From: Ammonifex degensii KC4 | GTDB taxonomy: Bacteria > Bacillota > Desulfotomaculia > Desulfotomaculales > Ammonificaceae | Direction: 5' to 3' | NCBI RefSeq assembly: GCF_000024605.1 | Contig: NC_013385.1 | Location: forward strand, 925,501-989,500 | Length of the DNA stretch: 64,000 bases | Part shown: one piece after another, positions 34,709 through 42,358 of the stretch | Position numbering within the stretch: the stretch's first letter is position 1 | How the letters are laid out: every line of letters begins with the position of its first letter | Notes under the pieces: generated by a model | What the model was told of the DNA's origin: nothing | The model's input: the letters and a program-made list of their open reading frames with translations, nothing else | Databases searched by the model: none | Position numbers and translations under genes: made by a program

Positions 34709-34808
34709 TCTTTTACCTCCTTAACCTGAACTGATTCTAACCTTGTACCCTATATTCTTTCTTTCCCCTGCTTTTTCCTGGTTTAAAAAACTGTACAAAA
34801 GTGTTTAG

Positions 34809-36402
34809 TCACACTACTTGCACAGCCGCCCCTGCACCAGGAACAGGAACTGGCCTTCTCACCGCCCGTTCCCAATCCCCCAAGACCAGGATCGGTCTCA
34901 AGGGAGAAAAGTCCCTCACGGTGCCTTTCACGTGAGAGAACTTTTCAAGGACCGGGACGGTGAGGGCTGCGGAGAGGACTCGCCAAGTTTTTATTCGCCA
35001 CCCCGGGAGGTGACCCCTCACCGGCTCCTTCCATCGGTCGGCCGGCTGTCGGGAAGCAGGCTCACCCTCCCCGCTTTGAAGAGCCCGAAGGTGGGCTCTG
35101 AGGGTCTTCAGTTCACCGCGTGTGGTCTTGAGTCTGGCCTTGATGGCCTTCTTCCGCCACTCGTTCTCTTCCCCCTTCAGTTCCTGTTTGAGCTCCTTTA
35201 CCTTCTCTTCGAGCTGAGCTACGGAGTAGAGCAGAAACTCTTCATCCCTGAGCAAAAGCCGGTAAGCTTCCGGCAGCTCCTCCTCAAAACCTAAAGCCCG
35301 GCGGCCAATCACCAGGGCCCCGGCCACGTCCTTGTCTACCAGGTACTGGGGCGCGTATTTCAACTTCCCTATCACCGAGGTGTAGGCAGGGTTTACTTTG
35401 ATTACTTCCACCCCGTGCCTCCTGGCCAGGACCTCTATCTTCTCTAGGACGCTCTTGTAAGCCCAGCGCTGAAGTGTCTTTCTCAACTTCAGGAAGCCGT
35501 CTCCCCTCCTGCCCTTCGGGAGCTTCTCCAGGTCTTCCATGGCGATGGCCTTGCCCTTCTCCAGGGCCAGCCTGACTACCTGATAGGCCACCTGCCAGGC
35601 AAGGTACTCCCTCTTGTCGCGATCGGCAGAAAGGAACTCGTGGAGACTTATCCTCTCGTGACCCTCGAGGTTGCCATCAGGGGAGACTTCCGCCAGCGCC
35701 AGGTGAAAGGGGTAGGCGTTGACGTCTATCCCTATGACCCCGTTTTCGAGGGTGATGACAGCGGGAGGGAACTCCTCGTCCACGCTCACGTGGGCGTAGA
35801 CTTCACCGTTTTTGAGCTTAAGCTCCACATCGTAGGGGAACCACTTACCTGTTTTTTCTGCCTGGTGCAAACTCCAGATGAAGCCTATCCACTTGTCTCC
35901 TTCTCTCTTTACCGGCCTTACGACCTTCGCGTAGACCCACCGTCTTTTCCCCACACATATCCGGAGAAAAAGCTCTCCTTTTATCCAGACAAACCGGAGG
36001 TTGAGGTTGCCCTTCTTTTTCTTGTCTCCCCTGGAGTAGAGGTTACCCTGCCTTTTTCTCCTTCCACTCCCTCTCCAGCTCTTCATGCCTCGGGCCGTTC
36101 AGGTGCTTCTTCTTGAGCTTCTCGAAGAGGCCTCTCCCGCCGAAGACTACTTTAGTGGGGTTCTGACCTCTCTCCCGGCAGGAAGACAGGACGGCAGAGG
36201 CTTTGAGGATGGCATCGTCGGCGTAGCGGGTGTTGACCTGAAAAACCTGGGCTAAGTGCTTCTTGAGTTCTTCCCTCGTCCATCCCTCTAAAAGCCTCCG
36301 GTAACCATACCTTTCGGCGGAGGAAAACTTACACATGAGGTCGAGGACCTTCCGCCTGTCTCCTTCGCTTTGAAACTCCAGGAGGCACTGGAGGGTTATC
36401 AC
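34809..36402 (-). pseudogene. tnpB: tnpB of IS607 copy 1, disrupted by a +1 insertion
   Basis: The first 119 codons (36402 down to about 36043) and the remaining part (about 36060 down to 34809) lie in different frames. Compared with the intact copy at 40712, one extra base is present at the A run in GAGAAAAAGGCAGG, which brings a stop soon after. The downstream part is otherwise nearly identical to the intact TnpB, including the RuvC aspartate region GIDVNAYPFHLAL. Restoring the frame would need a +1 shift, so the ordinary -1 slippage of transposase genes would not rescue it. A sequencing error in the A run is possible. Confidence 0.85.
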
Positions 36403-36986
36403 TTCTTCTTCCCGCCCCTTTTACCGGAGACCCTGGCGGCAAAGGAGGTGACAATGGCGACGAGGTCTTCTGCCAGTTCTCTCGTCTGCTCTTCGTTTTC
36501 TCCGCCATTCAGCACCACCAATTCCACGCCGAAAGCGTCAAAGAAGTTCCTCAGGTACTCAAAACCGAAACGGGCCAGCCGGTCAGGATATTCAACCACC
36601 ACCCTCTCCACTTCGCCCCTCTTCACCATGTTGAGAAGCTTCTGAAGCCCCCTCCTGTTCTCGTTCACCCCGCTGGCGATCTCCTGAATCACTTCGTAGT
36701 CCCAGCCTCTTTCCCGGGCAAACTCTTCAAGCCTTTCGATCTGGTTCTTGAGGTAGGCTTCTTGCTTCCTGGTGGAGACCCTGGCGTAGAGGACCGTCTT
36801 CAGCCGGATGTTGCTTTCTCCCAGGAGCCCTAGGAGCCTTTCGATGTCTTCTACCTTGTACCTCCGGACGCCGCCAGGGGTTCTGAGCGGGGTTATCAGT
36901 CCCTGCTTCTCGTAGTTCAGGAGGGAACCCCGGCTGAGCCCGTAAATCTCTTTGCACTCTTTGAGGGTCAGCAACTTCCGCTTCAT
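36399..36986 (-). CDS. tnpA: IS607-family serine recombinase TnpA, copy 1 (intact)
   Basis: This 195-residue transposase catalyses site-specific recombination by a serine nucleophile. An N-terminal MerR-like helix-turn-helix (LTLKECKEIYGLSRGSLLNY, residues 6-25) is followed by the resolvase domain, with S71 in VLYARVSTRKQ and YPDRLARFGFEYL. The order DNA-binding then catalytic domain is characteristic of IS607. ATG 36986 has its own promoter (36999-37027). The stop overlaps tnpB. This copy may be the only functional recombinase of the pair. Confidence 0.94.
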   Translation of the reverse strand: MKRKLLTLKECKEIYGLSRGSLLNYEKQGLITPLRTPGGVRRYKVEDIERLLGLLGESNIRLKTVLYARVSTRKQEAYLKNQIERLEEFARERGWDYEVIQEIASGVNENRRGLQKLLNMVKRGEVERVVVEYPDRLARFGFEYLRNFFDAFGVELVVLNGGENEEQTRELAEDLVAIVTSFAARVSGKRGGKKK

Positions 36987-36998
36987 ATCTCAGACACC

Positions 36999-37027
36999 AA
37001 TATACACATTTTGCAAGAATCTGTCAA
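36999..37027 (-). promoter_or_regulatory. Promoter of IS607 copy 1 tnpA
   Basis: On the minus strand TTGACA (37027-37022), 17-bp spacer, TATATT (37004-36999). The same boxes and spacing occur in copy 2, although the spacer sequence differs. Confidence 0.75.
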
Positions 37028-37031
37028 CTGT

Positions 37032-37051
37032 TGTGAACCTCCTCCGAAAAA
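37032..37051 (+). repeat. Left direct repeat flanking the IS481-type element
   Basis: The 20 bp starting TGTGAACCTCCTCCGAA recur with two mismatches at 38204-38223. The first 11 bp belong to the left terminus of IS607 copy 1, since copy 2 has the same sequence. The repeat is probably a target duplication made when the IS481-type element inserted at that terminus. Confidence 0.55.
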
Positions 37052-40043: not shown

Positions 40044-40126
40044 GCAGGAAAGGAGTGGCCAGGCGAAGAAATACTCTTAGTTGCGCCAGGTGGGGAATGG
40101 TACTTTGCACCGGAGGTTCACAACAG

Positions 40127-40155
40127 TTGACATATTTCCATAAAATGTGTATATT
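40127..40155 (+). promoter_or_regulatory. Promoter of IS607 copy 2
   Basis: TTGACA (40127-40132), 17-bp spacer, TATATT (40150-40155), 12 bp before the tnpA start codon. It may drive transcription of tnpB as well. Confidence 0.75.
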
Positions 40156-40167
40156 AGTGCCTGAGCT

Positions 40168-40715
40168 ATGAAGCGGAAATTGCTGACCCTCAAAGAGTGC
40201 AAAGAAATTTACGGGCTCAGCCGGGGTTCCCTCCTGAACTACGAGAAGCAGGGACTGATAACCCCGCTCAGAACCCCTGGCGGCGTCCGGAGGTACAAGG
40301 TAGAAGACATCGAAAGGCTCCTAGGGCTCCTGGGAGAAAGCAACATCCGGCTAAAGACGGTCCTCTACGCCAGGGTCTCCACCAGGAAGCAGGAAGCTTA
40401 CCTCAAGAACCAGGTCAAGAAGTGATCCAGGAGATCGCCAGCGGGGTAAACGAGAACAGGAGGGGGCTTCAAAAGCTCCTCAACATGGTGAAGAGGGGCG
40501 AAGTGGAGAGGGTGGTGGTTGAATATCCTGACCGGCTGGCCCGCTTCGGCTTTGAGTACTTAAGGAACTTCTTTGACGCTTTCGGCGTGGAATTGGTGGT
40601 GCTGAACGGCGGAGAAAACGAAGAGCAGGCGAGAGAACTGGTGGAAGACCTCTTCGCCATCGTCACCTCCTTTGCCGCCAAGATTTACGGTAAAAGGGGC
40701 GGGAAGAAGAAGTGA
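40168..40715 (+). pseudogene. tnpA: tnpA of IS607 copy 2, 40-bp internal deletion
   Basis: The first 80 or so codons match copy 1, including the HTH and the catalytic YARVSTRKQ. After the LKNQ codons, 45 bp of copy 1 are replaced by 5 bp, a net loss of 40 bp. This shifts the frame and brings a stop at 40423-40425. The rest of the resolvase domain continues in another frame to 40715. The recombinase cannot be functional as one chain; a product of 85 residues would keep only the DNA-binding part and the serine. Confidence 0.88.
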
Positions 40716-42307
40716 TAACCCTCCAGTGCCTCCTGGAGTTTCAGAGTGAAGGAGACAGGCGGAAGGTCCTCGACCTCATGCGCAGGTTTTCCTCCGCCGA
40801 GAGGTACGGCTACCGGAGGCTTTTAGAGGGATGGACGAGGGAAGAACTCAAGAAGCACTTAGCCCAGGTTTTTCAGGTCAACACCCGCTACGCCGACGAT
40901 GCCATCCTCAAAGCCTCTGCCGTCCTGTCTTCCTGCCGGGAGAGAGGTCAGAACCCCACTAAAGTAGTCTTCGGCGGGAGAGGCCTCTTCGAGAAGCTCA
41001 AGAAGAAGCACCTGAACGGTGAGAAGAGAGAAGAGCTGAAAAGGGAGTGGAAGGAGAGGAGGCAGGGGAACCTCTACTCCAGGGGAGACAGGACGAAGCA
41101 GGGGAACCCCAACCTCCGGTTCGTCTGGATAATGGGGGAGCTTTATCTCCAAATCAATGTGGGGGAAAGACAGTGGGTCTATGCGAAGGTCGTAAGGCCG
41201 GTGAAGAGAGAAAGAGACAAGTGGATAGGCTTCATCTGGGACCTCCACCAGGCGGAGAGGACGGGTGAGTGGTTCCCCTACAACGTGGAGCTTAAGCTCA
41301 AAAACGGTGAAGTCTACGCCCACGTGAGCATAAGCGAAAAGTTCCCTCCCGCTGCCATCACTCTCGAAAACGGGGTCATAGGGATAGACGTCAACGCCTA
41401 CCCCTTTCACCTGGCGCTGGCGGAAGTCTCCCCTGATGGCAACCTCGAGGGTCACGAGAGGATAAGTCTCCACGAGCTCCTTTCTGCCGACCGTGACAAG
41501 AGGGAGTACCTTGCCTGGCAGGTGGCCTATCAGGTAGTCAGGCTGGCCCTGGAGAAGGGCAAGGCCATCGCCATGGAAGACCTGGAGAAGCTCCCGAAGG
41601 GCAGGAGGGGAGACGGCTTCCTGAAGTTGAGAAAGACACTTCAGCGCTGGGCTTACAAGAGCGTCCTAGAGAAGATAGAGGTCCTGGCCAGGAGGCACGG
41701 GGTGGAAGTAATCAAAGTAAACCCTGCCTACACCTCGGTGATAGGGAAGTTGAAATACGCGCCCCAGTACCTGGTAGACAAGGACGTGGCCGGGGCCCTG
41801 GTGATTGGCCGCCGGGCTTTAGGTTTTGAGGAGGAGCTGCCGGAAGCTTACCGGCTTTTGCTCAGGGATGAAGAGTTTCTGCTCTACTCCGTAGCTCAGC
41901 TCGAAGAGAAGGTAAAGGAGCTCAAACAGGAACTGAAGGGGGAAGAGAACGAGTGGCGGAAGAAGGCCATCAAGGCCAGACTCAAGACCACACGCGGTGA
42001 ACTGAAGACCCTCAGAGCCCACCTTCGGGCTCTTCAAAGCGGGGAGGGTGAGCCCGCTTCCCGACAGCTGGCTGACCGACGGAAGGAGCCGGTGAGGGGT
42101 CACCTTTCGGGGTGGCGAATAAAAGCTTGGCGAGTCCTCTCCGCAGCCCTCACCGTCCCGGTCCTTGAAAAGTTTTCTCACGTGAAAGGCACTGTGAGGG
42201 ACTTTTCTCCCTTGAGACCGATCCTGGTCTTGGGGGACTGGGAACGGGCGGTGAGAAGGCCAGTTCCTGTTCCTGGTGCAGGGGCGGCTGTGCAAGAGTG
42301 TAGCTAA
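40712..42307 (+). CDS. tnpB: TnpB-type RuvC nuclease of IS607 copy 2, no zinc ribbon
   Basis: TnpB proteins are RNA-guided nucleases that keep their elements in place. This intact copy has 531 residues. RuvC-like motifs are GVIGIDVNAYPFHLAL (D226), AIAMEDLEKLPKG (E289) and YLVDKDVAGALVIGRRALG (D358). The four-cysteine zinc ribbon that normally lies between the second and third motifs is absent; only 69 residues separate E289 and D358, with no cysteines. A C-terminal extension of about 170 residues follows, including a charged coiled-coil segment. GTG 40712 overlaps the tnpA stop. Whether this variant still cuts DNA is unknown. Confidence 0.88.
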   Translation: MITLQCLLEFQSEGDRRKVLDLMRRFSSAERYGYRRLLEGWTREELKKHLAQVFQVNTRYADDAILKASAVLSSCRERGQNPTKVVFGGRGLFEKLKKKHLNGEKREELKREWKERRQGNLYSRGDRTKQGNPNLRFVWIMGELYLQINVGERQWVYAKVVRPVKRERDKWIGFIWDLHQAERTGEWFPYNVELKLKNGEVYAHVSISEKFPPAAITLENGVIGIDVNAYPFHLALAEVSPDGNLEGHERISLHELLSADRDKREYLAWQVAYQVVRLALEKGKAIAMEDLEKLPKGRRGDGFLKLRKTLQRWAYKSVLEKIEVLARRHGVEVIKVNPAYTSVIGKLKYAPQYLVDKDVAGALVIGRRALGFEEELPEAYRLLLRDEEFLLYSVAQLEEKVKELKQELKGEENEWRKKAIKARLKTTRGELKTLRAHLRALQSGEGEPASRQLADRRKEPVRGHLSGWRIKAWRVLSAALTVPVLEKFSHVKGTVRDFSPLRPILVLGDWERAVRRPVPVPGAGAAVQECS

Positions 42308-42341
42308 AACACTTTTGTACAGTTTTTAAAACCAGGATAAT

Positions 42342-42358
42342 GGTTGTATAATGCAACC
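42342..42358. promoter_or_regulatory. 17-bp near-palindrome over a TATAAT box upstream of plsX
   Basis: GGTTG and CAACC arms surround an AT-rich centre containing a perfect TATAAT (42347-42352). It begins 6 bp after the IS607 right end and 41 bp before the plsX start. No good -35 is seen at 17 bp. It could be an operator covering the promoter of the fab operon. It does not match the FapR consensus. Confidence 0.45.

Follow-up and report, generated by a model that had tools for sequence, protein, structure and literature searches.

A TnpB-like reading frame with a RuvC site, a missing zinc ribbon and a long C-terminal extension raises the question of what kind of protein it encodes and whether a guide RNA belongs to it. 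The frame (40712..42307, forward strand, 531 aa, GTG start) lies in the window, that is, the whole analysed stretch of 64,000 nucleotides, taken from a 2.13-Mb contig of Ammonifex degensii KC4. The open reading frame, profile matches and a structural model identify it as tnpB, coding for a ribbon-less TnpB-type RuvC protein. The element that carries it, with the target-derived GGAGG to its left at 40112-40116 and its right end at 42336, is an IS607-family insertion sequence, of which the genome has ten full-length copies plus two fragments of the right end. The alignment of the copies was used to determine the ends, which are sharp: on the left GGAGGTTCACAACAGTTGACA (GGAGGC in one copy, GGAGAT in another) and on the right AACCAGG, common to all ten full-length copies. 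The left-end core TTCACAACAGTTGACA (40117..40132, forward strand) is likewise common to the ten, with one substitution in L016. Precise empty sites were found for four insertions in a sister Ammonifex species, and they point to a GG dinucleotide crossover with no target duplication beyond it. In three of these sites GGAGG directly precedes the guide-matching sequence, which is the sequence found after the right end, and the remaining site has CAAGAGG instead. Because the empty sites keep GGAGG before the guide-matching sequence, the GGAGG to the left of the element (40112..40116, forward strand) is target sequence. By analogy with IS607 TnpBs, for which the published target motifs (TAMs) are AGGAG or GAGGG (PMC11061315), it is the candidate TAM of the ribbon-less TnpB. 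A related left-end core preceded by GGAGG also occurs at loci of Aquificota, Thermus and Meiothermus.

The accompanying tnpA (40168..40715, forward strand) encodes an IS607-family serine transposase and is broken in the window; model NF033518 matches both pieces, and the copy alignment reveals a frameshifting 40-bp deletion between 40418 and 40419. On the intact tnpA of copy L014 the same model scores 210 bits, as for an IS607 serine-recombinase TnpA with a MerR-type HTH. Only two copies, L014 and L010, have an intact tnpA, most of the others carrying larger deletions. The tnpB gene is open in nine of the ten full-length copies, the exception being the second window copy (34777..37042, reverse strand, mapped by copy alignment and RNA model search), in which tnpB is broken and tnpA open; L014 is the only copy with both genes open. 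Several other features of the surroundings were recorded. The element ends 15 nt upstream of the next ORF start (42351), the putative guide spans that start codon, and the ORF presumably resembles plsX. A right-end fragment occupies the same position in both Ammonifex species (L020 and L059), and immediately upstream of this fragment the sister genome has a CRISPR array. The guided-TnpB model gives 70 matches in the 2.16-Mb window genome, which is a heavy load.

The catalytic residues assigned in the preliminary description were borne out by alignment. D226 of RuvC-I (41387..41389), E289 of RuvC-II (41576..41578) and D358 of RuvC-III (41783..41785, all forward strand) align with the D-E-D of 14 reference TnpBs that carry a zinc ribbon and come from this genome or its relatives, two of which have Gly at the E289 position, and the triad is invariant in all 35 members of the window clade. 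The TNB domain, or zinc ribbon, is normally placed between RuvC-II and RuvC-III. In the window TnpB the match to the Pfam TNB model is confined to the first 27 of 60 positions and there is no cysteine in residues 336-373, so that the reported lack of a four-cysteine ribbon also holds. This absence could impair the handling of the target strand. The AlphaFold2 model (mean pLDDT 83) predicts a fold of the RuvC/Cas12 type, and among the nearest solved folds found with Foldseek from this predicted structure are those of Cas12f, Cas12k, Cas12m, LaTranC and RuvC, at modest pairwise TM-scores of 0.3-0.5. The NCBI models TIGR01765 and TIGR01766 both match the protein, and the guided-TnpB model NF040570 scores 62 bits, under its cut-off of 100. 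The PADLOC Csx1 model PDLC01039 also matches, at 3.9e-26; this Csx1 label is probably misleading. On the sequence evidence the protein is an IS607 TnpB by its element, triad and RNA, and not by a ribbon.

A guide RNA encoded at the right end had been suggested from the near identity of the 3' ends of the two window copies. In this comparison the 200-nt blocks are 80-100% identical and the last 300 nt 93.5-96%, and because these last 300 nt do not exceed the remainder in similarity, the identity of the two copies is not evidence for an RNA. The RNA itself is strongly supported by covariation and by constraint on silent sites. When the two Ammonifex species are compared in blocks of 40 codons, divergence at fourfold sites ranges from 0.22 to 0.51 in aa 1-440 and is 0.23 at aa 441-479 and 0.12 at aa 480-531, with amino-acid divergence of about 0.2 over most of TnpB; at aa 480-531 silent sites are conserved as much as replacement sites. 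The predicted structure contains stem A (42263..42285, forward strand, GTTCCTG...CAGGGGC), whose loop CCTGGT (42272-42277) would form a pseudoknot with ACCAGG (42331..42336, forward strand), the right terminus of the element, which is conserved across phyla. Among 32 clade sequences, 96.2% of the cells of stem A and the pseudoknot are paired, both sides are changed in 48 cells, and the covariation is 0.37 compared with 0.12 for shuffled and at most 0.13 for slid controls. Stem A alone is paired in 98% of cells, with compensatory changes in three pairs. The pseudoknot is paired in 94%, with compensatory changes in four pairs, a figure somewhat favoured by setting the sequence ends at a conserved motif, the ends of the Lalka sequences being taken independently from the repeat boundary; the right end of L063 is uncertain, and L135 and L137 fit the pseudoknot only in a shifted register. 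When the alignment is lengthened, a long-range arm appears as well, giving 25 pairs in total, 16 of them with compensatory changes.

The covariance model built from this structure (R1) places a scaffold of about 217 nt at 42120..42336 (forward strand), with a score of 154.7 bits that is not independent, the window RNA belonging to the training set. R1 also recovers five loci outside the training set (L130, L133, L134, L087 and L090) at E-values of 1e-16 to 1e-29. Its search of the related clade with His at the third catalytic position gave no significant match. No relevant match in Rfam 15 was found for the element and related loci, a negative that may not extend to the RAGATH-18 reRNA. Between stem A and the terminus, direct reading of the sequence reveals a lineage-variable hairpin, stem B (GTGCAAGAGTGT/ACACTTTTGTAC, 42290..42320, forward strand). 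The proposal that the guide starts just past AACCAGG agrees with the terminus common to all ten copies; if the IS607 TnpBs are a guide to its position, it would begin immediately after this terminus, with the flank ATAATGGTTGTATAATGCAA (42337..42356, forward strand), the sequence that follows GGAGG at the empty site.

The scaffold overlaps the last ~62 codons of tnpB, which bears on the nature of the C-terminal extension. In all 32 mapped sequences the first in-frame stop falls from 67 nt before to 44 nt after the RNA 3' end, most commonly 5 nt upstream of it, and in this stretch the other two frames contain about four and three stops on average. The overlap is judged by this first-stop position relative to the RNA end only; the absence of in-frame stops inside the ORF was dropped as evidence, being true by construction. 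In L134, outside the 32, the frame stops inside the RNA. Four groups retain codon periodicity at aa 482-498 (ratios 2.7-4.5), the periodicity at aa 513-531 being weak or lacking, and therefore the tail of tnpB is read as part protein and part RNA, the region around RDLSPLK (aa 482-498) apparently kept as protein and the terminus as RNA. The preliminary description had assigned to this region about 170 extra residues forming a long coiled coil. About 158 residues do follow RuvC-III, and the part resembling a coiled coil is limited to a predicted helical hairpin at about residues 387-443 (helices 387-410 and 414-443; codons 41870..42040, forward strand). The remainder is encoded mostly within the RNA and is predicted to be disordered in part, with low confidence at residues 445-466 and 516-531; about half of the whole extension is encoded by sequence that overlaps the guide RNA. 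The extension is best described as a helical hairpin of ~70 residues followed by ~85 residues whose codons lie mostly in the RNA.

The element, its ends, the target motif, the RNA structure, the triad and the loss of the ribbon are evident in the DNA itself, and we consider it probable that this is an IS607 element whose ribbon-less, catalytically complete TnpB and overlapping right-end guide RNA act in retention. That the right end is transcribed, that TnpB binds the RNA and cleaves DNA, and that this helps to retain the element is what we infer. The tnpB transcript would fold at its 3' end into the ~217-nt right-end RNA, its loop would pair with the last six bases of the element, and ~16-20 nt past the element would act as the guide. 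The TnpB-RNA complex would then cut DNA carrying GGAGG followed by the guide sequence, which is the site restored when the element departs, and cutting of the restored site would favour retention of the element. The reading frame of tnpB would run on through most of this RNA.

The loss of the ribbon might instead have made TnpB an RNA-guided DNA binder that does not cut, a mode of action described for TldR and Cas12m. The missing TNB ribbon is in line with this, as is the replacement of the third Asp by His in the ribbon-less sister clade, which indicates that catalysis is not sacrosanct in the lineage; the invariance of D-E-D across several phyla and phages and the predicted RuvC fold argue against it, and we regard it as unlikely. 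The conservation of the 3' nucleotides could also merely reflect a protein domain added as the ~170-residue extension. Such a domain would account for a frame open nearly to the RNA end in every mapped sequence and for the periodicity at aa 482-498, but not for silent sites that vary as little as replacement sites do at aa 480-531, the weak or lost periodicity at 513-531, the covarying base pairs or the frame of L134 that stops within the RNA, which makes this explanation rather improbable.

Still less credence, and in fact very little, is given to the element being a decayed, non-functional relic. The window tnpA is frameshifted and both genes are open in L014 only, but nine of ten copies keep tnpB open and its replacement divergence is low, and a broken tnpA means that the window copy needs a transposase in trans, nothing more. 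It is highly improbable that the conserved right end is only a DNA feature, a binding site of the IS607 transposase. TnpA does have to recognise the ends of IS607 elements, and most lineages have ACCAGG as an unchanging terminus; the constraint nevertheless spans ~200 nt, base pairs are maintained across phyla by compensatory changes with loop and terminus co-varying, and the arm and stem A persist, with a matching loop, in the Lalka phages, which lack a transposon end.

Among known systems, the closest parallels are IS607 elements with studied TnpBs. The TnpB of ISXfa1 uses a reRNA of ~150 nt with a GG crossover and a required pseudoknot (PMC10711439). Like ISXfa1 and ISFba1 (PMC11061315), the window element has a serine transposase partner, a GG crossover, a 5' G-rich candidate TAM, a structured right-end RNA with a putative pseudoknot and a D-E-D RuvC. 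It differs from both in the absence of the zinc ribbon, the longer C terminus, the candidate TAM GGAGG, a frame that continues through most of the RNA and an RNA without an Rfam match. Cas12f, Cas12k and LaTranC, among its nearest solved folds, share only ~10-14% identity with it, and the window locus, unlike type V Cas12 systems, has no CRISPR array. Fanzors are marked by an alternative Glu and a DPG motif. In contrast, E289 of the window TnpB stands at the Glu position of most zinc TnpBs and its motif is GIDVN (D-x-N); the IS607 link and the RuvC domain are held in common with Fanzors and pro-Fanzor IS607 TnpBs (PMC10711439).

The suggestion of an undescribed TnpB branch can be accepted only in a reduced form. 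The proteins covered by TIGR01765 and TIGR01766 are of the same family and are annotated by name only, as 'TnpB-related protein', and loss of the ribbon is also found in a large sister clade. In the papers searchable, no description of their guide RNA, ends, TAM or ribbon loss was found, nor was a functional study of this lineage in the literature searched. A RuvC-region tree (FastTree, 185 columns) recovers the window clade with local support of 0.88, the ribbon-less clade with His at the D358 position as its sister (0.85), and both together as split from the included zinc-ribbon TnpBs (0.82). The His clade comprises many ribbon-less TnpB-related proteins (L023-L048, L092-L117). Members of the window clade come from Ammonifex, Aquificota, Chloroflexota, Acidobacteriota and Thaumarchaeota MAGs, Thermus, Meiothermus and phages, and the clade is thermophile-linked, its source organisms being mostly thermophiles; full-length Thermus homologues, 46-51% identical, are carried on pTT27 and other plasmids. 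The window protein is of a known kind, the IS607 TnpB, and the ribbon loss and RNA overlap set its lineage apart as a variant.

One branch of this clade is associated with CRISPR arrays. In the Thermus phages Lalka8, 27a and 27b and in contig L136, a clade tnpB is directly followed by a CRISPR array, where the transposon end would be in the window element; the arrays of Lalka8 and 27a were found separately. Lalka arrays have been reported and a new type V system proposed (Kolesnik et al., PMC11437467), and the accessible part of that report mentions neither a tracrRNA nor a homology to guide RNAs. In the 3' end of the Lalka tnpB, both the RNA arm and stem A are preserved. The loop of stem A is CGGTGC, and the 3' end of the repeat, GCACCG, is its exact complement. 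In addition, CGCGCACGGG of the tnpB tail is complementary to CCCGTGCGCG of the repeat, a match equalled by ~1% of shuffled repeats; the free-energy comparison of repeat and tail is by itself weak, 4-11% of shuffled repeats equalling it. This arrangement, a tail with stem A and an anti-repeat and a repeat end complementing the stem A loop, was noted at the Lalka-type phage loci L055, L136, L139 and L140. From sequence, the Lalka guide RNA appears to be split into a tracrRNA and a crRNA. Apart from the Lalka-type loci L055 and L136, the scanned flanks of clade members contained no CRISPR arrays.

A spacer of L136 has a match in the integrase gene of the Thermus phage Riverbug (L138:302-333), 97% over 33 nt with one mismatch; the 5' flank, GAAGG, shares four of five bases with GGAGG, a single target that cannot define a PAM. 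Spacer 1 of Lalka8 has an imperfect match in the Thermus parvatiensis chromosome (L153), with four mismatches, most at the spacer 5' end, and this match lies near a tyrosine integrase gene. A 20-nt match of a Lalka spacer to a viral contig was taken as chance, having 8 mismatches over the 32-nt spacer, and no further targets were found in plasmids. On balance, we lean towards a ribbon-less IS607 TnpB having become a minimal type V CRISPR system in Thermus phages by splitting of its guide RNA, with the tracrRNA hidden in the 3' end of the effector coding sequence, pairing with the CRISPR repeat through a 10-nt anti-repeat and the old loop-terminus pseudoknot, and used against rival phages. It is this split-RNA origin of the Lalka system that we infer.

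Summarizing, the presented results suggest that TnpB can lose its zinc ribbon and still have, in distant phyla, an intact RuvC triad and a guide RNA that is well conserved, and they document that a protein and a guide RNA can overlap to an extreme degree within one sequence. A transposon nuclease and a phage CRISPR locus are connected through one RNA, in which the loop and its partner have changed together, and the Lalka link offers a directly testable case of a single guide RNA becoming a tracrRNA and a crRNA. With sources that are mostly thermophiles, the enzymes of this lineage may be heat-stable.
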